This document shows positions 12,565 to 38,261 of a stretch of DNA of 64,000 nucleotides, in pieces (the first letter of the stretch is position 1; every line of letters starts with the position of its first letter). Source of the DNA: Xanthostigma xanthostigma (lineage: Eukaryota > Arthropoda > Insecta > Raphidioptera > Raphidiidae). The DNA lies in contig OY754465.1 in the NCBI GenBank assembly GCA_963575645.1, forward strand, positions 33,863,501 to 33,927,500, written 5' to 3'. Position numbers and translations under genes: made by a program. The notes under the pieces are model-generated. The model ran no database searches, was not told the origin of the DNA, and saw nothing but the letters and a program-made list of their open reading frames with translations.

Positions 12565-12618
12565 ACTTTCATAGCAATCAGGAACTGAACAACACTATTT
12601 CACACAATATTTGTTTTT
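12565..12618 (+). repeat. Repeat R, left end of copy 1
   Basis: ACTTTCATAGCAATCAGGAA...ATATTTGTTTTT matches 39496-39550 of the intact copy 2. R resumes at about 21230, so everything in between is inserted or rearranged relative to copy 2. Confidence 0.85.
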
Positions 12619-13410
12619 AGGCGCGAATAGCGTAAGCTAAAGCGCCTATATGTACTCGCTTTGTCTGTGAATCTGTGAGTCACGCTTTTTGTATCCAGCG
12701 TACAGCCCAAACGACCTAACCGATTTTAAAAAACTTTTTTTTGTTCGATTTGTCTCCGGGTAACTTAGATCCTAACGGCGCCCGATTTTTGAATTTTTGC
12801 TCCAGAGGGGAGCAATTTAGAAAAAACGAAGTTTTTCGCTTATAACTCGCTCAATTTAAATCAGATCGGTTCGAAACCTGTCTTAAACGAAAGAGGAGAA
12901 AATTTTACATAAATTTCGTACAACAGAATTCGCCCAATCAGTTTTTTTATACACATTTATATAGAAATAAATTCAATCTGATATAACCGATAGCAAACAT
13001 CTTTCGGTTATCTCTCTCTGTTGCACGGTATAACATGGTAATATAATTATTGCGTATGTTCAGTCTTAAAATAAAATTGGTCGATAATTTTATTTATGAC
13101 AATAATGAAATTAAAAGATAGCATTTGTTCAAAAACGGATGCCGTTTCGAATATTTCTGAAATGCAACGCCTTCTAAGTTAAGTATTGGAATAACTAATT
13201 ATTATTAGAACATAATACTTTGTAAGTTGCAAACGTCACTTTTGACATTTCTTATCATTCCGACACCAAGGATGAGCGGATTGAAAACAAATTTTGGGAG
13301 GATGTTTGATATGCAAATATGAAGTGGCCTATTGGTTTTGGGGAACATCGGCGCATGCGTAAAAGAATATATCTCTTATAATGTTGTTTTATATAATAAT
13401 AATATAGTTT
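12619..13410 (+). mobile_element. S unit, left copy: unique end of a satellite-bearing element
   Basis: Starts AGGCGCGAATAGCGTAAGCT after a T-run and runs to the satellite at 13411. It is the reverse complement of about 32285-33074. Shared landmarks are TACTCGCTTTGTCTGTGAATC, 'AACGAAAGAGGAGAA', 'ATGCAACGCCTTCTAAGTTA', 'CATTCCGACACCA' and 'GGCGCATGCGTAAAAGAATA'. No ORF. It behaves as one terminus of a non-autonomous element whose other end is the satellite array. Confidence 0.75.
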
Positions 13411-15190
13411 CCTACAATATGGGTATCAAATGAAAAGGCTTGCTGAGAATAACTCGAAAAATAAAGTGACGTCAGTCTAAAACCAATATGGCGGACTTTA
13501 AAAGATGGCGGACTTATTTTGTTATGCTTTCCTACAATATGGGTATCAAAGGAAAGGGCTTGCTGAGAATAACTCGAAAAATAAAGTGACGTCACTCTAA
13601 ATCCAATATGGCGGACTTCTAAAGATGGCGGACTAATGTTATTATGCTTTCCTACAATATGGGTATCAAATGAAAGGGCTTGCTGAGAATAACTGGAATC
13701 ATAAAGTGACGTCACTCTAAATCCAATATGGCGAACTTCTAAAGATGGCGGACTAATTTTATTATGCTTTCCAACAATATGGGTATCAAATGAAAGGGCT
13801 TGCTGAGAATAACTCGAAAAATAAAGTTACGTCACTCTAAATCCAATATGGCGGACTTCTAAAGATGGCGGACTAATGTTATTATGCTTTCCTACAATAT
13901 GGGTATCAAATGAAAGGGCTTGCTGAGATTAACTCGAAAAATAAAGTGACGTCAGTCTAAAACCAATATGGCGGACTTTAAAAGATGGCGGACTTATTTT
14001 GTTATGATTTCCTACAATATGGGTATCAAAGGAAAGGGCTTGCTGAAAATAACTTGAAAAATAAAGTGACGTCACTCTAAATCCAATATGGCGGACTTCT
14101 AAAGATGGCGGACTAATTTTATTATGCTTTCCTACAATATGGGTATCAAATGAAAGGGCTTGCTGAGAATAAATCGAAAAATAAAGTGACGTCACTCTAA
14201 ATCCAATATGGCGGACTTCTAAAGATGGCGGACTAATTTTATTATGCTTTCCCACAATATGGGTATCAAATGAAAGGGCTTGCTGAGAATAACTCGAAAA
14301 ATAAAGTGACGTCACTTTAAATCCAATATGGCGGACTTCTAAAGATGGCGGACTTATTTTGTTATGCTTTCCAACAATATGGGTATCAAATGAAAGGGCT
14401 TGCTGAGAATAACTCGAAAAATAAAGTTACGTCACTCTAAATCCAATATGGCGGACTTCTAAAGATGGCGGACTAATGTTATTATGCTTTCCTACAATAT
14501 GGGTATCAAATGAAAGGGCTTGCTGAGATTAACTCGAAAAATAAAGTGACGTCAGTCTAAATCCAATATGGCGGACTTCTAAAGATGGCGGACTAATGTT
14601 ATTATGCTTTCCTACAATATGGGTATCAAATGAAAGGGCTTGCTGAGATTAACTCGAAAAATAAAGTGACGTCAGTCTAAAACCAATATGGCGGACTTTT
14701 AAAGATGGCGGACTAATTTTATTATGCTTTCCTACAATATGGGTATCAAATGAAAGGGCTTACTGAGAATAACTCGAAACATAAAGTGACGTCACTCTAA
14801 ATCCAATATGGCGGACTTCTAAAGATGGCGGACTAATTTTATTATGCTTTCCTACAATATGGGTATCAAATGAAAGAGCTTGCTGAGAATAACTCGAAAA
14901 ATAAAGTAACGTCACTTTAAATCCAATATGGCCGACTTCTAAAGATGGCGGACTTATTTTGTTATGCTTTCCTACAATATGGGTATCAAATGAAAGGGCT
15001 TGCTGAGAATAACTCGAAAAATATAGTGACGTCACTCTAAATCCAATATGGCGGACTTCTAAAGATGGCGGACTAATTTATTATGCTTTCCTACAATATG
15101 GGTATCAAATGAAAGGGCTTGCTGAGAATAACTCGAAAAATAAAGTGACGTCACTCTAAATCCAATATGGCGGACTTCTAAAGATGGTGG
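13411..15190 (-). repeat. 120-bp satellite array, left (about 15 units)
   Basis: Units repeat every 120 bp with few changes. Each holds 'CAATATGGGTATCAAATGAA', 'GCTTGCTGAGAATAACTCG', TGACGTCA, 'CCAATATGGCGGACTT' and 'AAAGATGGCGGACT'. The period is a multiple of three and one - strand frame lacks stops, which yields long artefactual repeat ORFs (40 residues per unit). The array is inverted relative to 29106-32048. It ends at AAGATGGTGGACTAAG, where a T-MITE follows. Confidence 0.95.
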
Positions 15191-15196
15191 ACTAAG

Positions 15197-15382
15197 TTTT
15201 TGACGTGATAACGTCTTATAAATTGATGAAACACCAGCTGCACGCACGAAAAAGTGTAACGTTCCGCCTGACCCTGTGCGCGCAAGCGAGAGCGCAGTAA
15301 TGTATTATTAAATATGATATTCGAGCGGAATACGTTATCACGTAAAACTATCGTCCGTAAACCGACTTTACAGACATCCAAT
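15197..15382 (+). mobile_element. Short complete T-MITE
   Basis: Reads TTTTTGACGTGATAACGTCT, ACACCAGCTGCACGCACG, AACGTTCCGCCTGACCCTG, ...CGTTATCACGTAAAACTATC, ...ACTTTACAGACATCCAA. At about 186 bp it is the most compact family member. It lies just after the left satellite array. Confidence 0.8.
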
Positions 15383-19239: not shown

Positions 19240-20310
19240 AACCTTTTATATCTTTTGAACGGAGTGTCCGACTGAAACGCGGTTTGCGGCATCTGACGTG
19301 ATCTTGGTGAACTTAGACTTCCTGAAAATTTGAAACGATTCGGCCCAAAAAATTTTGAGAAATCTTAAAAAACAAGTTTCAAAAATTTTTAAAAATTTGT
19401 TTTTGTAAAAAATTTTCTAAACTACTAAACCGATTAATTCCAAAAACTAATCAGCTCTTCTCCTTAACAAACTGCCTCGATTTCCGCAAACTGCATCAAA
19501 ATCGGTTCATTTGTTCACGAGAAACCGTGAACGAAAAAATCGTAAAAAAGTGTTTTTTTAAAATGACTCTTAACATTGTTATCAGATTGATTTTTTTGTA
19601 ATAAATTACTTTCTTAAGCTAAAAAAACTGCGTCGATCGCCGCAAACCATATCAAAATTGGTTCATTTGTTCATGAGATAACGTGAACGAAAAATTAGGA
19701 AAAAAGTAATTTTTTAAAATTACTCGTAAAATTCTTATCAAATCGATTTTTTTGTAATAATTTACTTTCTTAGGTTAAAAAAACTGCGTCGATTGCAGCA
19801 AACCGCATCAAAATCGGTTCATTTGTTCACGAGAAACCGTGAACGAAAAAATCGTAAAAAAGAGTTTTTTTAAAATGATTCTTAAAATTGTTATCAGATT
19901 GATTTTTTTGTAATAAATTACTTTCTTAAGCTAAAAAAACTGCGTCGATCGCCGCAAACCATATCAAAATTGGTTCATTTGTTCATCAGATAACGTGAAC
20001 GAAAAATTAGGAAAAAAGTAATTTTTTAAAATTACTCGTAAAATTCTTATCAAATCGATTTTTTTGTAATAATTTACTTTCTTAGGTTAAAAAAACTGCG
20101 TCGATTGCAGCAAACCGCATCAAAATCGGCTCATTTGTTCACGAGATATCGTGAACGAAAAGTTTGTAAAAAAGTGTTTTTTTTAAATTGCTCGTAAAAC
20201 TCCTATGAGATCGATTTTTCTGTATTAAATTACTTTTTAAGGTTAAAAAATTGCGTCGAATGCCGCAAATCGCATCAAAATCGGTTCATTTGTTCATGAA
20301 ATAGCGTGAA
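19200..20310 (+). repeat. (GT)n microsatellite followed by a tandem repeat, about 155-bp period
   Basis: (GT)n at about 19206-19226 leads into GAACGGAGTGTCCGACTG and then at least five units with 'AAAAAACTGCGTCGAT', 'CAAAATCGGTTCATTTGTTC', 'GTGAACGAAAAA' and 'TCGATTTTTTTGTAATAA'. Alternate units are more alike (a 310-bp dimer: 19500-19800 versus 19810-20110), showing higher-order duplication. Confidence 0.8.
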
Positions 20311-20319
20311 CGAAAATTT

Positions 20320-20900
20320 CGTAACAAAGTGTTTTTTTTTGAGCTCGAAGAGCTAAAAAATAAACTTCTTGCTATATTTGATATATTTTTGAGCGTTTTG
20401 AGCTCGAAAATAGCGGGAAGTTACAGGGATGGCCTGCAGGGTCAAACTACTTTTCAAATTTTTTTATATAATAATGGTGTACTTTTTATAATGTTTTATT
20501 ATTCTACTTTACAAGAAAGTTTTGTAAAATGTTTTTTGAGGGAAAGTCGGCGCATGCGCAGAAGAGGTATAAGTTATAAAGTTGTTTGTATATAACAATG
20601 GTATACTTTTCATAACTGTTTATTATTCGATCTATTTTTACAAGAGTTTTGTATAATTTTTGGGAAAAATCGGCGCATGCGCAAAAGAGATACATGCCAT
20701 CGTTGTTTTTTATATAATAATGGTGTACTTTTTATAATGTTTTATTATTTTATTTTAAAGAAAGTTTTGTAAAAAATTCTTTGAGCTAAAGTCGGCGCAT
20801 ATATGTTATAAAGTTGTTTTTATATAATAATTGGGTACTTTTCATAACGGTTTATTTTTCTATCTGTTTTTACAAGAAAGTTATGAAATTTTTTTTCTAA
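20320..20900 (+). repeat. Tandem repeat, about 140-bp period, related to the S unit
   Basis: Four units contain 'ATATAATAATGGTGTACTTT', 'ACAAGAAAGTTTTGTA' and 'GTCGGCGCATGCGCA(G/A)AAGAG'. The phrase CGGCGCATGCG followed by an A-rich run and TTGTTTTATATAATAAT is also found beside the satellite in the S unit (13350-13405), so the tandem probably grew from S-unit sequence. Confidence 0.7.
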
Positions 20901-21134
20901 ACTCATAATTTCAGAAATATTTTGAAAAAAAATCTGTTGTTCTTTTGTTCTGAAGATGTTAGTTAGGTTTAATTTTTGCATGACACAATAACATATTACA
21001 TAGAGAACCATGAAATTATTAAAATTATATTTTCCTTTCTGTGTTTCATTATTTTCAACTGTTATTTTTTTCTTAGAATAAGTAAATTAAGTTATACTAT
21101 ATTATTCTGCAAGTGTCGTTAAATATAATTATAT

Positions 21135-21229
21135 ATACACCGATTTTCAAACAAAACACCGGGGTATATGACGTAAAATTTCGCGCCTTGTAATTCTTGA
21201 ATTACTTGGGCATATACTCCCACTGGTTA
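21135..21229 (-). pseudogene. 3' fragment of the pogo-like transposase gene
   Basis: On the - strand this matches 28718-28812 of the pogo-like ORF almost base for base (coding 'GVYAQVIQELQ', 'YPGVLFENR'). It ends exactly where repeat R resumes (about 21230). In the large copy the same segment lies next to the tandem repeat and satellite array. Confidence 0.8.
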
Positions 21230-21264
21230 TTGTTGTTTTGACAATTATTATTAGACGTTACAGT

Positions 21265-21861
21265 TAGGGATGTGAAAAAATAATCGATTTTTCTTTTAAT
21301 CGATTATTTTTTTCTTATAATCGATTTCTTGTAATCGATTTTATTTATGACAATAATCGATTTTTAATGAATCGATTATAAATATTACACATTTTAATCA
21401 ATTTTTGTAAATGGTGCCATCTGTGCGACAGACGATTCTTTTTAGGTTTTTGATTCTTTAAATTCAAAGTTTAAAGCATGATTTGTTTTGTATTTTAGTT
21501 TTCATACCAAAATTGTCGGTTTATTTTTGATTCTTATCGTTTGGTTTTATTTTTCTTGTAAATTACAATTTGTAATAAAATGTCAATTTGTACTAGAAAT
21601 TGTTTCAACAATTCTAATCTGTATCAATAACCATAAGGTTGGCATTTTGGTTATTATTATTATACTTTACCATTTTAAATGATTTTCATTCTAATAAATT
21701 TTTAATATTATTCTCTTAGTTCTGTTATATAGAAAAAATCGATTTTTTTACAAAAATCGATTATTTCTTTTAAAATCGATTTTTTAAAAATCGATTTATA
21801 TTCAAACTAAAAAAATCGATTATTAATTAATCGATTTTTTTCATTCAATGTCACATCCCTA
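21265..21861. mobile_element. hAT-type MITE, TAGGGATG family, copy A
   Basis: Terminal repeats TAGGGATGTG and CACATCCCTA, flanked by a perfect 8-bp duplication GTTACAGT (21257-21264, 21862-21869). The unoccupied site is present once in R copy 2 (39579-39586). The interior is dominated by ATCGATT motifs forming nested hairpins. No transposase. Confidence 0.92.
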
Positions 21862-22173
21862 GTTACAGTAGCAAAGAATAGCGCAGCCATTTTACTCTTC
21901 CTTTGTAGGATCTGCATAGGATGATTTCCAATTCGAACACTAGATGTCAAACTATGATTGACAATCATTGTAAAAGGACTTTCCATATAAGCATAGCCTG
22001 CTGCCCGTTTTGAAGCGTTTCTTGCATATTCCTAATATATCCATCGTTTCAGAAGAATTTTGTTAGATTATGGATTGGTTTGAAAGTTTGGGCAGATCAT
22101 ATACTTTTATTCTATACTGAGCATAGGAATAAAATCGCAATCAAACTATTACGGTGCAAACATATACTTCTGT

Positions 22174-22827
22174 TTTTGACGTGATAACGTCTTATAAATT
22201 GATGAATCACCAATCTTATAAATTGATAAAACACCGGCTGCATGCACGAAAAAGTGTAACGTTCCTAAAATCCTAACGTTCGTAACGCGTAACGTTCCGC
22301 CTGACCCTGTGCGTGCTTTTTGCTAATTTCTCGCTCAATTTAAATCAGATCGGTTTGAAACCAGTCTTAAACGAAAGAGGAGAACATTTTACATAGATTT
22401 CGTATAACAGAATTTGCCTAAACAGTTTTTTTATACAAATTTATATAGAAAAATAGCTGTATAAATGCCATGTTGTCTAATGCATGGCGCGACGCGGTCG
22501 GTCGTCTTTGTTTGCCGTACATGGAAATTAGAAAATAACGTATGTCTTGTCTTAACATGAAAACGGCTGCATTTCTAATGTTTAATTCAATTTTTTGACA
22601 TTAGTATTTTGTGAAATGCAACGCCTTCTAAGTTAAGTATTGGAATAACTAATTATTATTAGAACATAATACTTTGACAGTTGCAAACGTCACTTTTGAC
22701 ATTTCTTATCATTCCGACACCAAGGATAAGCGGATTGAAACCAAATTTTGGGAGGTTTAGGTTATGTATTACGGAATACGTTATCACGTAAAACTATCGT
22801 CCGTAAACCGACTTTACAGACAACCAA
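22174..22827 (+). mobile_element. T-MITE carrying an S-unit fragment
   Basis: The family ends are TTTTTGACGTGATAACGTCT and CTTTACAGACAACCAA, inserted into the T-run of R (empty site about 39890-39901). Between them, about 22320-22756 matches S-unit sequence: 'CTCGCTCAATTTAAATCAGA', 'TTAAACGAAAGAGGAGAA', 'AACGCCTTCTAAGTTAAGTA' and 'CATTCCGACACCAAGGAT', with internal deletions relative to 12840-13310. Confidence 0.8.
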
Positions 22828-23581: not shown

Positions 23582-25261
23582 CAGGGGTCGGCAATCTGCG
23601 GCTCTTTCGATGTAAAGTTGCGGCTCTCCAGTTCCATACACAAAAATTAATTACTTTATTATAAAAACCCTTAAAAGTCGTGCAATCGATCTATAATTGA
23701 GTACCATGTCTACCTTTCAGCCACTTCCACTCGCGTCTCACCCGCACCGCCCCCGTCGAGAGATATACAGGGTGTTTGGCACATGAACCGACACAATTTT
23801 TTGGGGGGTTCTCGTGGTCATTGTGATCATTTTAACTCCAATGACTATTGCCCTAAGTGTCATGGCTATCGAGATACGATTTTTTTTAGTTATTTTCGAA
23901 AATTGGCCTAAAAATTGCCTTCAAAAAATCGTAACCTGTTTGTTTTTGGTACTAGAGACTCGAAAATACATTTATTGAGTTCTCCAATGACTCCTTGTTC
24001 TAAATGAATCATAATTTTATGCAAATAGTATCAGGAAAAAGACCCTATGGACTTTTAAAGTGCCTGTATTAATAAAAACCAGTAGAAAAAAATAATTTAA
24101 AAATTATTTAAAAAAAAATTAACGGGTATTTAGAAATTAGTTTTGTTTAGAAAAATACTTCACTTTATCCTCTTTTCAACGATATGCCACATGTCATATT
24201 TATCATTCAGAATGTAGCCAAATTAAACATTACCAGTTTGCAAGAGTCAACTCGTGCGCTAAAAAATATCAAGTTAGATAGCCAGCCGTTATTGATCTAG
24301 GATGTAAATAACAAGTCTTGTTTCACTTTTCATTAAACGATATTGACTGTTAAACAGGTAGACAATGATTACAAAATTTGCTCAAATTGTGCCCCTCCAA
24401 ATCGGATACAAGCACGACACCTATTACTAATTTCAACAGTTGTTGTTCTCAAAAGCATTTCCCTTTTCATTATTTCAAATGCAGCATCTATTCTTTCTAT
24501 TAAATTTTCTCTGCTGGGTACCTCCGTAAAGTTAGGCATTGTAAGACAACAACGAAAAACTTAACAACACCCAAAAATGACACAACAAATAACAACAGAT
24601 AATCAAAGCCTGCTCTTTATCACTGTATTGTTCCAACCGATAACGGCTGACTACCTGACTTGATATTTTTTGGCGCACGAGTTGACTCCTGCAAACTGGT
24701 AATGTTTAATTTGGCTACATTCTGAATGATAAATATGACATGTGGCATATCATTGAAAAGAGGATAAAGTGGAGTATTTTTCTAAACAAAACTAATTTCT
24801 AAATACCCGTTAATTTTTTTTAATGATTTTTAAATTATTATTTTCTACTGGTTTTTATTAATACAGGCACTTTAAAAGTCCATAGGGTCTTTTTCCTGAT
24901 ACTCTTTGCATAAAATTATGATTCATTTAGAACAAGGAGTCATTTGAGAACTTAATAAATGTATTTTCGTGTCTCTAGTACCAAAAACAAACAGGTTACG
25001 ATTTTTGGAAGGCAATTTTTAGGGCAATTTTCGAAAATAACTTAAAAAAAATCGTATCTCGATAACCATAACACTTAGGGCAAAAGTCATTGGGGTTAAA
25101 ATGATCACAATGACCACGAGAACCCCCCAAAAAATTGTGTCGGTTCATGTGCCAAACACCCTATATAATATTGAAACAAGAAGTAGTGGCTCTTTAAAAA
25201 CTGGAAAATTTTGTAAATTGTAACTTTTGGCTCTTCCGTCTCAAAAGGTTGCCGACCCCTG
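23582..25261. mobile_element. hAT-type element, CAGGGGTCGGC ends
   Basis: Terminal repeats CAGGGGTCGGCAA and (near) TTGCCGACCCCTG, with 8-bp flanks GGCTAGAC and AGCTAGAC (7 of 8 match). Subterminal 'GCGGCTCT' and 'TGGCTCTT' motifs are typical of this MITE type. Most of its length is a second element inserted at about 23769-25163. No hAT transposase. Confidence 0.85.
23769..25163. mobile_element. Long-inverted-repeat element nested in the hAT element
   Basis: Arms of more than 500 bp start CAGGGTGTTTGGCACATGAA and end in the complement; they run about 23769-24310 and 24655-25163 and differ at few positions. TATA flanks suggest a TA target. The central 340 bp encodes only a 73-residue open frame (24343-24564) without recognisable features. 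Confidence 0.8.
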
Positions 25262-26710
25262 AGCTAGACTAAATTCGTAAAATTTTGCGTGCGAACACGA
25301 GGGACATTGATTTTGTTGCAGCACTTGAGTCTTGGAGAAGTTGTTTTATATAGCAAAGAAAGCAACAGTTATAATTAAATGATCGGGCATTAAGGCCGCT
25401 TCACACGAGGCTAGAAACGTTGCTAGATTTACCTTTTAGTTTTCTAGCGCTGGTTTTCTTAATTGCTGTTATGTGCTCGCTTCACACGAGACATCTTTTC
25501 AAGCTAGTTTTGTGAATAAATCTGGTGCGCGCAGTAATAGTTCAAATGTAAACACAGAGCAAAACGTGTCTTGTCTGACTCTGAGCAGAATGACGCCATG
25601 TTGGTTTGTGGGCGTTTGTTCATGTCGCCCACGTGACAAGATACTGCTTCCTGATTGGTTCTTGCTCATACCTAGCAGCGTACCTAGCAAGAAAAATAGC
25701 CCATGTTCTAGTTTTAAAACCAATCTTGTGAACTAGCAGGCAAGCTCGCAGTAGGGATGTTGAAAAAGTATCGATATATCAATGTATCGATATTTTTAAT
25801 TCAAAACATCGATATTTTGATCCGATATATAGATACAAAATATCCAATATCGAAAATTGTATCAAAAACGATATATTTTTTTATTTATGTAACTAAAGTC
25901 ACTAGAATCCAAAACCGTAAAGGATACTTTCGCTACCGGACAAATACTGGTTTGCTTAATACAATAAATAGGTTTAAAAATATTAGTTAGAAGATAGCTT
26001 TTTAGTTTTTGATATTTTTGTAATTATTATATTGCCTAAGAAAAAGAAATACTGGTAAAAATACCTTCATTTTTATTGAGATTTTTGTACATTAAAATAA
26101 TGTACATTTTGTATAAAAATTACTATTGATAATATTAAGCTAAATACACTATTATTTTAAAAACGCAAAATATTTTGAAAATTTGACCGATATATTGATA
26201 TTTTTTTCTCGATATATCGACGTCGATATTGATATTTTTATAAATATCGATAGGGTGAAGTGGGGCAATTGTAATACCGGGGCAAAAGTAATAGTTGTGA
26301 TTTATTTAATAAAAATAGAATTATAGTATACTGCCATCTATGGACAGTATAGTGTACTTACTCAGCTGTGTGGGAACAACTCACAAGTCACAATTTGACC
26401 GACGAACAGTCAATGACAGTTTATTTTCTGCGTGGTCTTCAAAGCATCAAGAGGAGTAATTTGTACTTGGAAATTAAATCCGAATTCATCGTAACTGACA
26501 ATGTAAGTTTTTTAAATATTTTTGATTAATTGCATTTGTTGTAGTGTAATAATGTGTTTTATGGCTGTTATTTAAAAAAACGTGATTTCCTTTAGTCAGA
26601 CGATGCTATTACATTTGCCCCTAAAAACATCATGACTGGGGTTTTTGCAATAGTTATGACTGGGGTAAATGTAAAAACCATTGCATTTACCCCATTTTAA
26701 TTTTTTTTAG

Positions 26711-28930
26711 ATGGTGAGAAACTACGTTAAAAAAAAACCAGAAGGCACATATTCTCAGGAAAAGTTACAAAGCGCCTTGAATGACATCAACTCTAAGCGG
26801 ATGACAGTTCATAGGGCTTCCAAATTATATAATATTCCATTTTCAACGTTGTACTGTCGACATAAAGGTTTGCGAGGAGCAATAAAAAAGACGAAAGGCA
26901 GAAGAACCGCTATTGCTGAAGATGTCGAAAATGTCCTCGCAGTTTCGATTAAAACTCTGGCAAAATGGGGGTTCGGACTCACCCGTAAGGAGATTTTGGA
27001 AATGGTTGGTCAATACACAAAGGCCAATTCATTAGAAACACCATTTCGTGATGGAGTCCCCGGAGAAGATTGGTTTCTGAATTTTAAAAAGCGGCACAAC
27101 CTATCTATTCGTAAACCAGAAACTCTTGAAATATCTCGAAAAAAAGCAGCCACCGATCCGTTCATTGTGCTTGGATATTTTGACCTTCTGGATAAAACAC
27201 TCACAGATTTGGAACTAAAAGACAAACCAAACCGCATTTGGAATTTAGACGAAAGTAGTTTGTGTTTTGATCCGTCAAGAACTAAAGTCGTTGGAGAAAA
27301 GGGCCAAAGTGTATCATGAGTAACAAGTACTTCTGGTAGAGAAAATACCACATTCGTTTTGGCCGCAAATGCCGAAGGTCACCGAATTCCACCTTTAATA
27401 ATATTTAAAGGTAAAAATGTCTGGGACTCATGGCGAGCTCCTTCTGAGCATGAATTTCCTGGTACATCATACGCCGCTAGTCCAAACGGGTGGATGGAAA
27501 CAGAATTATTCCAAAATTATTTTGTGAAAACACTAACACCTGCGCTGGGCGAAGAGCGACCAGTCCTAATTCTCTATGACGGGCATAGCACACATGTCTC
27601 TCTAAAACTCGTAGAAACTGATTCAGCCAATGGCATAACAATTATGAAACTTCCAGCACATACAAGCGATAAGCTACAACCCTTAGATGTTTCGGTGTTC
27701 AGGTCGTTTAAGCAGAAGTGGGATGAAAAAATTACAAAGTGGCAGAGGCAGCACATCGGAAAAAAATTACCGAAATCGCTATTCTCCCAATTTTTGGGAG
27801 AAACGCGGACAAACGTTGAAAGTAATGTTATCCAAAGTGGCTTTCGTAAAACTGGTATATTTCCATTCGACCCAACTGTGATACCACCAAGTAATTTTTC
27901 AAAAGAGTCCTTAGAACGTTGGGAAGCATTTAAAGCGCAGAAGACAAAACATAGTGAAGAAAATAATAGCGATAATTTGTCAAATACAACAGAAAATCCA
28001 AAAAGAGAGCAAGAACAACTTCCAAATAGTTCTCCATCAAGAACGTTATCTCAACCTCCTTCTTTATTGCAAATTCCACGAACATCTACCGACAACATTG
28101 AACAATTTAAATCACTAGAAGACATAATACTATCAACTATACACCAAAAAGCCACTCCTTCCCAACAAAAACGACGCAAAGTTGCAAGCGGAGCAGAAGT
28201 GATCACATCAGCAGAAATGATAGAATTACTGAAAAAGAAGGATATGAATAAAAAGAATAAAGATAAAAAGAAAACTACTGAAACTAAAACAAAAAAGAAA
28301 AAGTTTAAGAGAGATTCAGTACGTAACAGTTCAGAGAGTGAAACGGAAGAAGAAATACAATATGCTGAATCTGATGATAGTGTAGGTCTTGAAACTGAAT
28401 TCAGTGAAAATGACAATAAGGAAGACGAAGAATGTGAAAATTTTACACCGATTATGGATCTAGACCAACAGAAAAACGAAGGAGATGAGAATCGTAACAT
28501 ACAGAATTTAGATTTGGCCATCAATACGTGGATAATAGCTAAATATTCACTAAAAAAGTCAGTGAAATATTTTGTTGGTTTGATTCAGAACAGAGTAAAA
28601 GATCGCTGGGAAGTAAAGTTCACGAGACGTAAAGAAAGTCATTTTGTATGGCCACAACGCGAGGATGTTGATCTAATTACTAATGAGTCGGTAGTACAAA
28701 TATTACCTAATCCAGATATAAAACCAGTGGGAGTATATGCCCAAGTAATTCAAGAATTACAAGGCGCGAAATTTTACATCATATACCCCGGTGTTTTGTT
28801 TGAAAATCGGTGTATATTTATCGATCAGCCCGGAATTGTTTTTTTAAAAACTCCACATTTGCCCCTTCCCGTTTCACTGCGAGACAATTCGCATACCCGT
28901 TTATCGTTCACTCCGGAATTGTTTTTTTAA
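26711..28930 (+). pseudogene. pogo-like transposase with one in-frame TGA
   Basis: One frame from ATG 26711 to 28930 is interrupted only by TGA at 27317-27319. Residues about 10-55 form a psq-type helix-turn-helix ('YSQEKLQSALNDINS', 'ASKLYNIPFSTLYCR'). Residues 60-150 resemble a CENP-B-type DNA-binding region. The DDE_1 catalytic domain shows 'RIWNLDESSLCFD', 'VLILYDGHSTH' and 'KLQPLDVSVF', which hold the three acidic residues. The C-terminal third has a Ser/Thr-rich linker, a lysine-rich stretch (about 28222-28305, probable nuclear localisation), an acidic segment and a tail beginning 'WIIAKYSLKKSVKYFVG'. The last 35 or so residues run into a tandem repeat, so the natural C-terminus is displaced. 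The gene mediates cut-and-paste transposition at TA sites in related elements; this copy is presumed inactive. Confidence 0.9.
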
Positions 28931-29105
28931 AAACTCCACATTTGCCCCTTCCCGTTTCACTGCGAGACAATTCTCATACCCCTTTATCGTTCACCCCGGA
29001 ATTACAATTCGCATACCCGTTTATCGTTCACCCGGAATTATTTTTTTAAAAACTCCACCTCTGCCCCATCGTGTTTCACTGCGTGACAATTCGCATACCC
29101 CTTTA
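28818..29105 (+). repeat. Tandem repeat, about 90-bp period, at the pogo/S-unit junction
   Basis: About three units contain 'CCGGAATT', 'TTTTTTAAAAACTCCAC', 'TTTCACTGCGAGACAATTC' and 'CATACCC(G/C)TTTATCGTTCA'. They lie between the pogo-like coding sequence and the right satellite array, and part is read as an artificial extension of the transposase ORF. Confidence 0.8.
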
Positions 29106-32048
29106 TTAAAAAAAGCTTAGTCCGCCTTCTTTAGAAGTCCGCCATATTGAATTAAAAGTGACGTCACTTTATTTTTCGAGTTATTCTCAGCAAGCCCTTT
29201 CATTTGATACCCATATTGTAGGAAAGCATAATAAAATTAATCCGCCATCTTTAGAAGTCCGCCATATTGGACTTAGAGTAAATTCACTTTATTTTTCGAG
29301 TTATTTACAGCAAGCCCTTTCATTTGATACCCATATTGTAGGAAAGCATAAAAAACTTAGTCCGCCATCTTTAGAACTCCGCCATATTTGTTTGAGAGTT
29401 ACGTCAATTTTATTTTTCGAGTTATTCTCAGCACGCCCTTTCATTTGATACCTATATTGTAGGAAAGCATAATAAAATTAGTCCGCCATCTTTAGACGTC
29501 CGCCATATTGGATTTAGAGTGACGTCACTTTATTTTTCGAGTTGTTTTCAGCAAGCCCTTTCATTTGATATCCATATTGTAGGAAATCATAAAAAACTTG
29601 TCCGCCATCTTTAGAAGTCCGCCATATTGGTTTTAAAGTGACGTCACTTTATTTTTCGAGTTATTCTCAGCAAGCCCTTTCATTTGATACCCATATTGTA
29701 GGAAAGCATAATAAAATTAGTCCGCCATATTTAGACGTCCGCCATATTGGATTTAGAGTGACGTCACTTTATTTTTCGAGTTATTCTCAGCAAGCCCTTT
29801 CATTTGATACCCATATTGTAGGAAAGCATAAAAAACTTAGTCCGCCATCTTTAGAACTCCGCCATATTTGTTTGAGAGTTACGTCACTTTATTTTTCGAG
29901 TTATTCTCAGCACGCCCTTTCATTTGATACCTATATTGTAGGAAAGCATAATAAAATTAGTCCGCCATCTTTAGACGTCCGCCATATTGGATTTAGAGTG
30001 ACGTCACTTTATTTTTCGAGTTATTTTCAGCAAGCCCTTTCATTTGATACCCATATTGTAGGAAATCATAAAAAACTTGTCCGCCATCTTTAGAAGTCCG
30101 CCATATTGGTTTTAGAGTGACGTCACTTTATTTTTCAAGTTATTCTCAGCAAGCCCTTTCATTTGATACCCATATTGTAGGAAAGCATAATAAAATTAGT
30201 CCGCCATCTTTAGACGTCCGCCATATTGGATTTAGAGTGACGTCACTTTATTTTTCGAGTTATTCTCAGCAAGCCCTTTCATTTGATACCCATATTGTAG
30301 GAAAGCATAATAAAATTAAATCGCCATCTTTAGAAGTCCGCCATATTGGATTTAGAGTAAATTCACTTTATTTTTCGAGTTATTTACAGCAAGCCCTTTC
30401 ATTTGATACCCATATTGTAGGAAAGCATAAAAAACTTAGTCCGCCATCTTTAGACGTCCGCCATATTGGATTTAGAGTGACGTCACTTTATTTTTCGAGC
30501 TATTCTCAGCAAGCCCTTTCATTTGATACCCATATTGTAGGAAAGCATAATAAAATTAGTCCGCCATCTTTAGAGGTCCGCCATATTGGTTTTAGAGTGA
30601 CGTCACTTTATTTTTCGAGTTATTCTCAGCACGCCCTTTCATTTGATACCTATATTGTAGGAAAGCATAATAAAATTAGTCCGCCATCTTTAGACGTCCG
30701 CCATATTGGATTTAGAGTGACGTCACTTTATTTTTCGAGCTATTCTCAGCAAGCCCTTTCATTTTGATACCCATATTGTAGGAAAGCATAATAAAATTAG
30801 TCCGCCATCTTTAGAAGTCCGCCATATTGGTTTTAGAGTGACGTCACTTTATTTTTCGAGTTATTCTCAGCAAGCCCTTTCATTTGATACCCATATTGCA
30901 GGAAAGCATAATAAAATTAGTCCGCCATCTTTAGACGTCCGCCATATTGGATTTAGAATGACGTCACTTTCTTTTTTGAGTTTTTTTCAGCAAGCCCTTT
31001 CATTTGATACCCATATTGTAGGAAAGCATAAAAAACTTAGTCCGCCATCTTTAGACGTCCGCCATATTGGATTTAGAGTGACGTCACTTTATTTTTCGAG
31101 CTATTCTCAGCAAGCCCTTTCATTTGATACCCATATTGTAGGAAAGCATAATAAAATTAGTCCGCCATCTTTAGAGGTCCGCCATATTGGTTTTAGAGTG
31201 ACGTCACTTTATTTTTCGAGTTATTCTCAGCACGCCCTTTCATTTGATACCTATATTGTAGGAAAGCATAATAAAATTAGTCCGCCATCTTTAGACGTCC
31301 GCCATATTGGATTTAGAGTGACGTCACTTTATTTTTCGAGCTATTCTCAGCAAGCCCTTTCATTTTGATACCCATATTGTAGGAAAGCATAATAAAATTA
31401 GTCCGCCATCTTCAGAAGTCCGCCATATTGGATTTAGAGTGACGTCACTTTATTTTTCGAGTTATTCTTAGCAAGCCTTTTCATTTGATACCCATATTGT
31501 AGGAAAGCATTATAAAATTAGTCCGCCATCTTTAGACGTCCGCCATATTGGATTTAGAGTGACGTCACTTTCTTTTTTCGAGTTATTTTCAGCAAGCCCT
31601 TTCATTTGATACCCATATTGTAGGAAAGCATAATAAACTTAGTCCGCCATCTTTAGACGTCCGCCATATTGGATTTAGAGTGACGTCACTTTATTTTTCG
31701 AGCTATTCTCAGCAAGCCCTTTCATTTGATACCCATATTGTAGGAAAGCATAATAAAATTAGTCCGCCATCTTTAGAAGTCCGCCATATTGGATTTAGAG
31801 TGACGTCACTTTATTTTTCGAGTTATTTTCAGCAAGCCCTTTCATTTGATACCCATATTGTAGGAAAGCATAAAAAACTTAGTCCGCCATCTTTAGAAGT
31901 CCGCCATATTGGTTTTTGAGTGACGTCACTTTATTTTTCGAGTTATTCTCAGCAAGCCCTTTCATTTGATACCCATATTGTAGGAAAGCATAATAAAATT
32001 AGTCCACCATATATAGAAGTCCGCCATATTGGATTTAGAGTGACGTCA
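29106..32048 (+). repeat. 120-bp satellite array, right (about 24 units)
   Basis: Reverse complement of the left array. Each unit reads 'GTCCGCCATCTTTAGA', 'GTCCGCCATATTGG', 'TGACGTCACTTTATTTTTCG', 'CAGCAAGCCCTTTCATTTGA', 'CATATTGTAGGAAAGCATAA'. Variants are arranged in blocks: about 30421-30770 recurs at 31021-31370 with the same one-base insertion (CATTTTGATAC), a 600-bp period of five units, and GGAAATCATAAAAAACTTG recurs 480 bp apart. Open frames of up to 216 residues are artefacts of the 120-bp period. Confidence 0.95.
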
Positions 32049-33079
32049 CACAGCTAACCATGCATTGTCATCCAAACTAAACGTGTATACAAATTTTCAT
32101 CTCAATCGGTTGAAGATATCTGCTTCAAAATTATCGAAGGCATTCTAGTCGCTCACTTAGTAATTTAGTCGCTCACTTATTAATTTAGTCACCCAAATAT
32201 TATTTTAATATCTCAAGTTATTAAAACAGGATTTCATCATCAGTCACCAAGTTTTTTTTTATTCGTCCGTTTTATAATTCCCCTATTATTATTATATAAA
32301 ACAACATTATAAGAGATATATTCTTTTACGCATGCGCCGATGTTCCCCAAAAACAATAGGCCAATTCATATTTGCATATCAAACATCCTCCCAAAATTTG
32401 GTTTCAATCCGCTCATCCGTGGTGTCGGAATGGTAAGAAATGTCTAAAGTGACGTTTGCATCTGTCAAAGTATTATGTTCTGATAATTAGTTATTCAAAT
32501 TGTTAACTCAGAAGGCGTTGCATTTTACAAATATTGAAACGGCATCCGTTTTTGAACAAATGCTACCTTTTTATTTCATTATTGTAATAAATAATATTAT
32601 CGACCAATTTTATTTTAAGACAGAACATACGCAATTTTGAAATTGCCATGTTAAACCATGCAACAGAGAGAGATAACCGAAAGATGTTTTCCATCGGTTA
32701 TATCAAATTGAATTTATTTCTATATAAATGTGTATAAAAAAACTGTTTGGGCATTTTCTGTTGTACGATTCTTATGTAAAATTTTCTCCTCTTTCGTTTA
32801 AGACAGGTTTCGAACCGATCTGATTTAAATTGAGCGAGTTATAAGCGAAAAACTTCGTTTTTTCCTTATTGCTCCCCTCTGGGGTCAAAATTCAAAAATC
32901 GGCCGACGTTACGAGCTAAGTTACGCGGAGACGAATCGAACAAAAAAAAGTTTTTTAAAATCGGTTAAGGCGTTTGGGCTGTACGCGTGACACAAAAAAA
33001 CGTGACACACAGATTCACAGATTCACAGACAAAGCGAGTACATATAGGCGCTTTAGCTTACGCTATTCGCGCCTAAAAA
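32049..33079 (-). mobile_element. S unit, right copy
   Basis: About 32285-33074 is the reverse complement of 12619-13405 and ends CGCTATTCGCGCCT followed by an A-run. Between the satellite and that homology lie about 235 bp not found in the left copy (32049-32284), including three diverged TTTAGTC(G/A)CTCAC(T/A)T motifs. A short hairpin (AGGCGC...GCGCCT) lies at the very end. No ORF. Confidence 0.75.
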
Positions 33080-33430
33080 GAGGCATTATGTACTTCGATT
33101 ACAAATTTAGAAACATGATTATTTCATAGATAGATTATTTATATTATAATTTTGTCTGTTTTGTATTAGGTACCCTATATCAGGACCGCAAGGAAAAAGT
33201 TGATTTTTTGTTATATTTGTATGGGCAGTTGTCTACTAATTTGTTTTTAAGTGTTTACGTTTCTAATCATTATTATTTAAGGCTAAACTACATTAGTTCC
33301 TAAGATTTCATTTCATGAGACATGTTTCAATTTCATAAAAAAGTTAATATCTCTTACAAAATTTGGTTGATTTAATTGAAATAAAAACTAAAGTACTTGA
33401 CGATTTGAGCATTTTATTGCATTTACCTCG
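33080..33430 (+). other. Probable 3' portion of the pogo-like element
   Basis: AT-rich sequence between the S-unit end and the foldback element. By position it should be non-coding 3' sequence of the pogo-like element; it continues after the foldback at 37884-38134, which has 'ATTACATTTGCCCCGTTTTA' and 'GGGTAAATGTAATAATGGG'. No gene. Confidence 0.5.
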
Positions 33431-33439
33431 TATTCTCCC

Positions 33440-36400
33440 ATGTGCGTCAAGTTGGATGGGACACCCCTTAAAAACAAATTTTTTTTTACGCCAATCGTTA
33501 GTGCTACGTTAGTGCCGCGCACTGTTAAAATTTCAGCGTTAGTGCCGGAAAATTGTGGAAAATATAGAGGGTTGTTGGTGTCCCATCCAACTTGACGTCA
33601 AGTTGGATGGGACACCCCTTAAAAAAGCGACTTTTGAAATTTTTTTTTGCGCCAATCGTTAGTGCTGCGTTAGTGCCGTATACTGTCAAAAGTGCTCGGT
33701 TACTGCCAAAAAATTGTGGAAAATATAGAGGGTTACTTTTCTTCCCTTTTAGGTTGACGTGAAGCTAGATGAGACACCCCTTAAAAAAAACGATTTTTGA
33801 AATATTTTTTTGTGCAAATCGTTAGTGCTACGTTAGTGCCGCATACTGTCAAAATTTCAGCGTTAGTGCCGGAAAATTGTGGAAAATATAGAGGGATTTC
33901 GAAAAAGTCAACTTAGATGGGACACCCCTTAAAAAAGCGACTTTTCAAAAAAATTTCTACGCCGATCGTTAGTGCTACGTTAGTGCCGTATACTGTTAAA
34001 GTTTCAGTGTTAGTGCTGGAAAATTGTGGAAAATATAGAGGATTTAAAAACGTCAAGTTGGATGGGACACCCCTTAAAAAAACGACTTTTCAAAAATTTT
34101 TCTACGCCATTCGTTAGTGCTACGTTAGTGCCGTATACTTTCAAAAGTGCTCGGTTACTGCCAAAAAATTGTGGAAAATATAGAGGGTTACTTTTCTTCC
34201 CTTGTAGGTTGACGTGAAGCTAAATTAGACACCCCTTAAAAAACGATTTTTGAAATATTTTTTTTGCAAATCGTTATTGCTACGTTAGTGCCGCATACTG
34301 TCAAAATTTCAGCGTTAGTGCCGGAAAATTGTGGAAAATATAGAGGGATTTCGAAAAAGTCAACTTAGTTGGGACACCCCATAAAAAAGCGACTTTTCAA
34401 AAAAAATTTTACGCCGATCGTTAGTGCTACGTTAGTGCCGTATACTGTTAAAATTTCAGTGTTAGTGCTGGAAAATTGTGGAAAATATAGAGGATTTCAA
34501 AACGTCAAGTTGGATGGGACACCCCTTAAAAAAACGACTTTTCAAAAATTTTTCTACGCCATTCGTTAGTGCTGCGTTAGTGCCGTATACTGTCAAATGT
34601 GCCGCGTTAGTGCCGGGAAATTGTGGAAAATATTCACTATTTTTATATATCTATATAGTCAAATGAGACAAGTATATCTAATAAACTAAACATAACTATG
34701 TCCAAATTGTACAAATCGATATAAATTAAATTTTTACTTCGTGACAGAAAATAAATACGTAAGTGGTAGCTGTTAGGATTTACAATGTTTTTCTAGGAAA
34801 ATTTCATATTTTTCTGGTAAAAATGGATCATTAATATTTAATAATTTCTGAAAAAAATAAATAGTTAAGATAATGTGTAATACTGTACAAACAATACTTA
34901 CCATTATTATCAATTAATTAAATTAATTAAAAAAATATGTATCCACGTAGACAGAAAATGGAGAATTATGGCTGCAGGAAGGATTTCTAAAATTAAATAA
35001 AAAAATAGTTTTTTTTTCTAAATAGGTACTTACATATGACTAATTGTAGCGTTGCTCTAAATATATCAGACCATTGATTTTATAATTCTAAAAAAAATCA
35101 ATATACTTTCTGAAATATTGATAAAAATATGAAAAATACACATTAAAAGTACAAATTTTGATAAAAATCATCAAGTGACACGCAATTAAGAAAACATATG
35201 AGATTTTCTACGAAAATAAAAAAAAAATCGGGTCACAGTACGAAACCCTGCCGACAATATAGTGTATTTACCAAAACAGACAGTGTGGCTTTATTATGTG
35301 AACGTAACTCCTTTGTTTTTGGACAAAATAAAGAATTAAACCCTTAATACATCCCTTAAAATAATATATTTCTTCTTAATTTCAATATATTACTGTCAAT
35401 TTAAAAATTAAATTTACCCTTCACTAAGTAAATCCATATTTACAAACTAACGGTTTCATAAAATTTTTAAGTTCGATCCTGTCGGGCTAATTTTATTAAA
35501 ATTTTGGCGGCACATTTTTATCTTTACTAATGGATTAAATTTAAATTTTGAAACGACCGACACCAATAATGTAAGTGCCATATGGCAAATACACTAATAA
35601 CAAAAATTTTCTCACGATTTATAACTTAAAAAATTGTTGGATTACTTATTTCTTTCTAATAATTATTTTGGTACTCCTTTCTGAAATGTTTTTAGTGATA
35701 CAAATTAGTGATGTAACGAATATTTGCACACATTCGCGAATATTCGCATATGTCTGTTTTAGTAAATACACTATATTGTCGGCAGGGTTTCGTACTGTGA
35801 CCCGATTTTCTTTTATTTTTGTAGAAAATCTCATGTTTTCTTAATTGCGTGTCACTTGAAGATTTTTATCAAAATTTGTACTTTTAATGTGTATTTTTCA
35901 TATTTTTATCAATATTTCAGAAAGTATATTGATTTTTTTTAGAATTATAAAATCAATGGTCTGATATATTTAGAGCAACGCTACAATTAGTCATGATGTA
36001 AGTACCTATTTAGAAAAAAAAAACTATTTTTTTATTTAATTTTAGAAATCCTTCCTGCAGCCATAATTCTCCATTTTCTGTCTACGTGGATACATATTTT
36101 TTTAATTAATTTAATTAATTGATAATAATGGAAATGGTAAGTATTGTTTGTACAGTATTACACATTATCTTAACTATTTATTTTTTTCGGAAATTATTAA
36201 ATATTAATGATCCATTTTTACCAGAAAAATATGAAATTTTCCTAGAAAAACATTATAAATCCTAACAGCTACAACTTACGTATTTATTTTCTGTCACGAA
36301 GTAAAAATTAAATTTATATCGATTTGTCAATTTGGACATAGTTATGTTTAGTTTATTAGATATACTTGTCTCATTTGACTATATAGATATATAAAAATCG

Positions 36401-37874
36401 TGAATATTTTCCACAATTTCCCGGCACTAACGCAGCACTAACGAATGGCGTAGAAATTTTTTTGAAAAGTCGTTTTTTTAAGGGGTGTCCCATCCAACTT
36501 GACGTTTTGAAATCCTCTATATTTTCCACAATTTTCCAGCACTAACACTGAAATTTTAACAGTATACGGCACTAACGTAGCACTAACGATCGGCGTAGAA
36601 ATTTTTTTGAAAGGTCGCTTTTTTAAGGGGTGTCCCATCTAACTTGACTTTTTCGAAATCCCTCTATATTTTCCACAATTTTCCGGCACTAACGCTGAAA
36701 TTTTGACAGTATGCGGCACTAACGTAGCAATAACGATTTGCAAAAAAAATATTTCAAAAATCGTTTTTTAAGGGGTGTCTAATTTAGCTTCACGTCAACC
36801 TACAAGGGAAGAAAAGTAACCCTCTATATTTTCCACAATTTTTTGGCAGTAACCGAGCACTTTTGACAGTATACGGCACTAACGTAGCACTAACGATTGG
36901 CGTAGAAAAATTTTTGAAAAGTCGTTTTTTTAAGGGGTGTCCCATCCAACTTGACGTTTTTAAATCCTCTATATTTTCCACAATTTTCCAGCACTAACAC
37001 TGAAACTTTAACAGTATACGGCACTAACGTAGCACTAACGATCGGCGTAGAAATTTTTTTGTAAGGTCGCTTTTTTAAGGGGTGTCCCATCTAACTTGAC
37101 TTTTTCGAAATCCCTCTATATTTTCCACAATTTTCCGGCACTAACGCTGAAATTTTGACAGTATGCGGCACTAACGTAGCAATAACGATTTGCAAAAAAA
37201 ATATTTCAAAAATCGTTTTTTAAGGGGTGTCTAATTTAGCTTCACGTCAACCTACAAGGGAAGAAAAGTAACCCTCTATATTTTCCACAATTTTTTGGCA
37301 GTAACCGAGCACTTTTGAAAGTATACGGCACTAACGTAGCACTAACGAATGGCGTAGAAAAATTTTTGAAAAGTCGTTTTTTTAAGGGGTGTCTCATCTA
37401 AGTTGACTTTTTCGAAATCCCTCTATATTTTCCACAATTTTCCGGCACTAACGCTGAAATTTTGACAGTATGCGGCACTAACGTAGCACTAACGATTTGC
37501 ACAAAAAAATATTTCAAAAATCGTTTTTTTTAAGGGGTGTCTCATCTAGCTTCACGTCAACCTAAAAGGGAAGAAAAGTAACCCTCTATATTTTCCACAA
37601 TTTTTTGGCAGTAACCGAGCACTTTTGACAGTATACGGCACTAACGCAGCACTAACGATTGGCGCAAAAAAAAATTTCAAAAGTCGCTTTTTTAAGGGGT
37701 GTCCCATCCAACTTGACGTCAAGTTGGATGGGACACCAACAACCCTCTATATTTTCCACAATTTTCCGGCACTAACGCTGAAATTTTAACAGTGCGCGGC
37801 ACTAACGTAGCACTAACGATTGGCGTAAAAAAAAATTTGTTTTTAAGGGGTGTCCCATCCAACTTGACGCACAT
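33440..37874. mobile_element. Foldback-type element with 9-bp target duplication
   Basis: Starts ATGTGCGTCAAGTTGGATGG and ends in its complement; flanked by a perfect 9-bp duplication TATTCTCCC (33431-33439, 37875-37883). The arms are about 1.8 kb each (to about 35285, and from about 35740). The outer 1.2 kb of each arm is itself tandemly repeated (GGGACACCCCTTAAAAAA, CGTTAGTGCTACGTTAGTGC, TTGTGGAAAATATAGAGG). A loop of about 455 bp has no transposase. Long internally repetitive inverted repeats plus a 9-bp duplication match Foldback-type (MULE-related) elements. Short ORFs in the arms are repeat artefacts. Confidence 0.9.
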
Positions 37875-38261
37875 TATTCTCCCAGTAGTCATTTATTAAA
37901 GATTAATGGTCGATTATTACATTTGCCCCGTTTTACAGGGTAAATGTAATAATGGGTTCACATTACATAGTAAATTTAATTTAGATTTATCTATAAGAAG
38001 TTGCGGGGTTGTAAATACAGTTTTCAAAACTTGACGTATGTGTGTCATCTAGTAAAAATATTTAAACAAATAGGGCTGACATCTTGCAAATGGCGGCATG
38101 TTAATTTTCAATTCTCAATTGCCCCACTTCACCCTACATCAATATTTTTTTTCACTTTCGACATCCCTAGCTCGCAGTGACGTCATTTCCAGCGTCGTAC
38201 CCAGTCTACCGGCCAGCAGAACTCCTAGCAGTGTTTCTAGCCTCATGTGCAGCGGCCTTAA

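Follow-up and report, generated by a model that had tools for sequence, protein, structure and literature searches.

Five transposon insertions on four levels, with one captured passenger fragment, in the genome of Xanthostigma xanthostigma

A 64,000-bp stretch of contig OY754465.1 of Xanthostigma xanthostigma (assembly GCA_963575645.1; C2:33,863,501–33,927,500 in a genome of 623 Mb and 28 contigs), hereafter the window, contains between positions 25390 and 38261 a series of repeats lying inside one another, which raises the question of which elements make up this nest and in what order they arrived. The nest is real and comprises five insertions on four levels together with one captured passenger fragment, and all its parts belong to known kinds, namely, an outer PIF/Harbinger-type miniature inverted-repeat transposable element (MITE), a hAT MITE, a pogo-type element and, side by side within the latter, a satellite-bearing, probably Helentron-type HINE (the S unit) and a foldback element whose loop holds the passenger (Table 1). 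The whole nest very probably arose by successive independent insertions.

Four target duplications were readable: TTAA at 25390–25393 and 38258–38261 (outer MITE), the 8-bp GCTCGCAG at 25744–25751 and 38170–38177 (hAT MITE), TA at 26251–26252 and 38135–38136 (pogo), and the 9-bp TATTCTCCC at 33431–33439 and 37875–37883 (foldback). Every pair borders matching inverted termini exactly. Across the 64 kb, GCTCGCAG was found only at its two duplication sites, and TATTCTCCC occurs once more, at 27780. An earlier note on this DNA had read the same four pairs, and all four were confirmed in place. Its heading, at least five nested elements with a duplication for each layer, goes too far: there are five insertions but four levels, S has no duplication, as the text of the note itself says, and S and the foldback are neighbors.

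The empty sites, for which the earlier note had proposed a search, were sought in the same genome and found for four of the five insertions, the outermost being the exception. With the inner layers removed, the outer MITE aligned at 88–91% with 7/7 fetched relatives across the hAT junction, six of them extending more than 60 bp beyond it (L005 by just 13 bp). In the hAT MITE search, 40 of 290 candidates were scored, including 39 full-size rows outside the window, of which 37 crossed the pogo site without pogo (three by 9–14 bases only). The 8-bp hAT duplication is exact in the window copy, and among ten relatives for which both ends were retrieved, four matched at 8/8 positions, five at 7/8 and one at 6/8 when the best of offsets 0–4 was taken (two relatives needed an offset, of 2 and 4). 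TA adjoins the pogo termini in the window as well as at the visible ends of 6/6 fetched loci. The pogo frame, with its single in-frame stop, encodes DDE_1 (E-value = 7.8e-24), HTH_psq (E-value = 4.1e-10) and HTH_Tnp_Tc5 domains, and S sits in its 3' part. The two fetched pogo loci covering this part, L013 and L014 (98.6% and 99.4%, respectively), contain neither S nor the foldback: a single TATTCTCCC occupies the foldback site, and 7 and 8 A occupy the S site, compared with 4+5 A in the window.

Pogo matches longer than 1 kb outside the window numbered five, every one on contig C10. At 11.63 and 11.69 Mb of this contig (L011–L014), two pogo copies with differing outer flanks share the same split point, with a gap of ~3.1 kb and a 10-bp overlap, a pattern that would fit a pogo insertion carried to a new place along with its cargo. 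The region of C10 at ~8.8–16.3 Mb contains all five long pogo relatives and 31 of the 53 MULE-domain matches of the genome, like a transposon reservoir.

The minus strand of S begins with TTTTT-AGGCGCGAA, whose hairpin partner lies just inside; AGGCGCGAA (9 bp) recurs inverted ~40 bp before the 3' end is reached, where the palindrome GTAATTC-TT-GAATTAC is also located, near position 28721. S has T strings at its ends and an A/T-run as its target and no target duplication, none being expected because its anatomy is that of a Helentron-type HINE. A 30-bp S end had 1,803 genomic matches (at most 2 mismatches) versus 0 for the reversed control. The start AAACC was present in 14/15 loci (L018 deviates), and the right end CCTAAAAA in 19/19 ends found among 20 loci searched (the probe missed L035). 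For six S copies the two flanks were joined and used in one combined search, with 40 candidates scored: relatives crossed the junction at three of the six loci, the remaining three matching themselves only, and two empty loci read to the base had 9, 6, 7 A and 6, 6, 6 A, versus 3+5 A in the filled sites.

Subterminal inverted repeats and a 3' palindrome are part of the HINE layout described in PMC4067079 and PMC7492417. The DINE-1/HINE elements of PMC4067079 resemble S in their terminal T strings, in a stem loop at the 3' end and in the microsatellites or tandem repeats that they contain. Their subterminal repeats, of 12–15 bp as against 9 bp in S, are placed much as in S, one close to the 5' end with an inverted repeat nested in it and the other ~38–60 bp from the 3' end. 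Cg_HINE of the Pacific oyster (PMC7492417) shares with S two flanking modules, subterminal inverted repeats, the 3' palindrome, satellite-like central repeats, T-rich targets without duplication, and empty sites recovered via joined flanks; it differs in sequence and lineage, and the S repeat has just 9 bp and the S copy is nested in pogo.

Twenty S copies, paired by hand from genome matches, spanned 1.9–7.6 kb, corresponding to roughly 4–51 units; the closest, L030, was 99.6% identical over the 1,030-bp module, yet had ~19 units versus 24. A second S copy lies on the other strand of the window at 12614–15200 (end module 91%, adjoining 120-bp array of 14.9 units at 13408–15200). S-like pieces were also present within 19469–22755 (21130–21228 at 98% and 22317–22755 at 73%), where they adjoin other tandem arrays (156/312 bp and 122 bp), and perhaps represent another HINE family. 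An inner stretch of S (32276–32420) was 82% similar over 149 columns to L083 (1545–1692) and L084 (1783–1930), both upstream of Rep frames on C10. Near-identical open Rep frames of ~1,555 codons are numerous genome-wide, which suggests recent Helitron activity.

The foldback arms (33445–35282 and 35751–37556) were identical at 1,735 of 1,787 aligned positions, with an additional 70 gap positions; this alignment leaves out the outermost right arm (37557–37874) owing to tandem repeats, the termini having been shown to match separately. The 30-bp terminus had 28 genomic matches (at most 3 mismatches), which were paired as eight elements with both ends within 10 kb, window copy included; a pair on C22 was dropped as not being one element. 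Six of the seven others were fetched (all except that at C2:35.7 Mb), and 6/6 had their own 9-bp duplications. The element resembles Mutator-type foldbacks such as Tm1 (PMC3169594), which likewise has long inverted tandem-repeat arms and mostly 9-bp duplications; Tetris (PMC4079207) also has long inverted arms of tandem repeats. The window foldback differs from both in its 145-bp units in a 452-bp higher order, its HINE-like loop fragment, and the absence of a linked transposase.

The loop fragment was 87–90% similar to about 40 genomic places, and some of these relatives hold a central TA microsatellite (L060). The 12-bp inverted repeat in L060 was reached by 1 of 1,000 shuffles. Interpretation of the loop repeat as a MITE with terminal inverted repeats was dropped, as its ends show a HINE-like layout. 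About 60 bp of the fragment are repeated in the right arm, and 35751–35815, once considered a second fragment end, proved to be this arm copy; with ~60 bp present in both arms, the arms may have grown inward by copying bordering DNA.

For the outer layer, the earlier note had named a piggyBac-type MITE with a TTAA target, and TTAA does flank the window copy on both sides. With the termini taken as AGGCC...GGCCT, both ends were read in 15 relatives (L002, L003, L006, L007, L008 and the ten pairs L118–L137; L004 and L005 were excluded, one end missing; L118, L126, L130, L136, L006 and L007 were judged by visual inspection of the sequence). An exact 3-bp TTA or TAA duplication was found in 11/15 relatives and TTAA flanking both sides in 0/15. 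The target duplication is TWA for PIF/Harbinger and TTAA for piggyBac (PMC9033116); the PIF/Harbinger MITEs of Helicoverpa in that paper resemble the outer MITE in TWA duplications at short inverted termini. Thus, the outer MITE is of the PIF/Harbinger type, piggyBac is rejected as very improbable, and the mismatched duplication of the window, which happens to mimic TTAA twice, is better read as TTA/TAA. Another possibility, given that all layers are repeats, is that unrelated copies were joined in part of the nest during assembly; however, the 8-bp and 9-bp duplications match, the sequence of every host element resumes in register on the far side of its insert, and the contig is 69 Mb, which makes such a join extremely improbable. 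As the loop fragment lies wholly within the foldback loop, it might also have inserted there at this locus as an extra layer, but this is quite unlikely: foldbacks that inserted elsewhere, on C1 and C6, and made duplications of their own there retain the initial ~16 bases of the fragment where a deletion begins or ends, and in these bases they share the variant letters of the window copy. Therefore, the fragment was in the foldback family before the window landing and is a layer of the foldback element, not of the locus.

Several results weigh against the interpretation adopted here. The outer duplication of the window is inexact (TTA versus TAA, one mismatch), four of the 15 outer-MITE relatives (L006, L122, L130 and L134) had no exact 3-bp duplication, and the empty site of the outermost insertion was not found in the genome among 40 scored rows, its flanks matching themselves only, except for a repeat ending near 25268. 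Around all 28 foldback ends, the 160 kb on either side are free of MULE domains, the nearest of the 53 matches being 162 kb away. The subterminal repeat of S, at 9 bp, is shorter than those of PMC4067079 and was reached by 15 of 1,000 shuffles, and the search for an autonomous partner was negative: of the 89 Rep-domain matches genome-wide, three groups were sampled with two upstream stretches each, and none of these six stretches shares an end with S. The short repeat and missing partner, together with a plus-strand right end that reads CTAA behind a hairpin and so resembles a Helitron 3' end, would suit a canonical Helitron or another duplication-free element. This is nevertheless unlikely, since S has no 5' TC, its copies lie within A/T-runs rather than between an A and a T, and its minus strand follows the HINE layout with T-runs at the ends, one repeat nested in a 5' hairpin, another ~40 bp from the 3' end, and a 3' palindrome (cf. 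PMC4067079).

According to the Helentron-type reading of S and the PIF/Harbinger-type reading of the outer layer, the nest would have begun with the insertion of the outer MITE into single-copy DNA at a TWA site, after which the hAT MITE would have entered it with an 8-bp duplication and the pogo-type transposon would have entered the hAT MITE with a TA duplication. Then, in either order, the HINE with its 120-bp satellite array would have inserted into an A/T run of pogo without duplication, and the foldback, already holding its HINE-like loop fragment, into pogo with a 9-bp duplication. We infer the enzymes that moved each non-coding layer, as well as rolling-circle replication for S. Similarity to the nearest relative rises inward, from 88–91% for the outer MITE through at most 94% for hAT and 98.6–99.4% for pogo to 99.6% for S and ~98.5% (longest match) for the foldback, which agrees with this order, although nearest-copy similarity is not an age and leaves S versus foldback undecided. 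The earlier note had given the same succession, which the empty sites support, and had left the order of S and the foldback undecided. Duplications and family copies likewise support its hAT, pogo and foldback layers, and its placement of S inside pogo, beside the foldback and without duplication, was borne out by pogo relatives without S that show a single A-run. The Helentron-type anatomy of S and the passenger in the foldback loop are absent from that earlier reading.

Table 1. Features of the nest (window coordinates).
Feature	Position	Strand	Remarks
Left target duplication TTA of the outer MITE	25390..25392	.	Right partner TAA 38259–38261, one mismatch
PIF/Harbinger-type MITE, left part, ending with left GCTCGCAG	25393..25751	+	7/7 fetched relatives align across the hAT junction
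hAT MITE, left part, ending with left TA	25752..26252	+	37/39 full-size rows outside the window cross the pogo junction
Pogo-type element, left part	26253..28723	+	
Pogo-type transposase frame (HTH_psq, HTH_Tnp_Tc5, DDE_1)	26711..28720	+	One in-frame stop, 27317–27319
S unit, Helentron-type HINE	28721..33079	-	5' end 33079, 3' end 28721; A-runs blur the bounds
Central array of S, 24.4 units of 120 bp	29117..32049	.	
Pogo-type element, middle part, ending with left TATTCTCCC	33076..33439	+	
Foldback element, termini ATGTGCGTCAAG, 145-bp units in 452-bp higher order	33440..37874	.	
HINE-like fragment in the foldback loop, internally deleted, brought by the foldback	35227..35597	-	
Inverted copy of the first ~60 bp of the loop fragment, right arm	35751..35815	+	
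Right TATTCTCCC (37875–37883) and pogo-type element, right part	37875..38134	+	
Right TA (38135–38136) and hAT MITE, right end	38135..38169	+	
Right GCTCGCAG (38170–38177), outer MITE right end (to 38258) and TAA (38259–38261)	38170..38261	+	

Beyond the nest, a separate high-copy repeat at 25200–25268, which we presume to resemble a hAT end, terminates ~120 bp to the left of it. Both the kinds of element present and the WD40 and NIF3 frames indicate a eukaryote. Neither a tRNA scan of the window nor a search against Rfam at gathering thresholds gave any match.

The nest gives the relative order of five element families in one genome, namely, the PIF/Harbinger MITE, the hAT MITE and pogo, followed by S and the foldback. 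It illustrates that a target duplication read from a single old copy may be misleading, as with TTAA versus TWA, and S adds a further case of a Helentron-type element carrying a satellite array, with ~1,800 matching ends. We tentatively suggest that the length of the 120-bp array in S changes faster than the flanks diverge, that one Helentron-type family may seed most of this satellite across the genome, and that foldback arms may grow inward by copying their neighbors. If the present account is true, which for this part can be proposed only with reserve, the layers would be of two origins: five would have jumped in at the locus, and one, a captured Helentron-type fragment, would have arrived inside the foldback.

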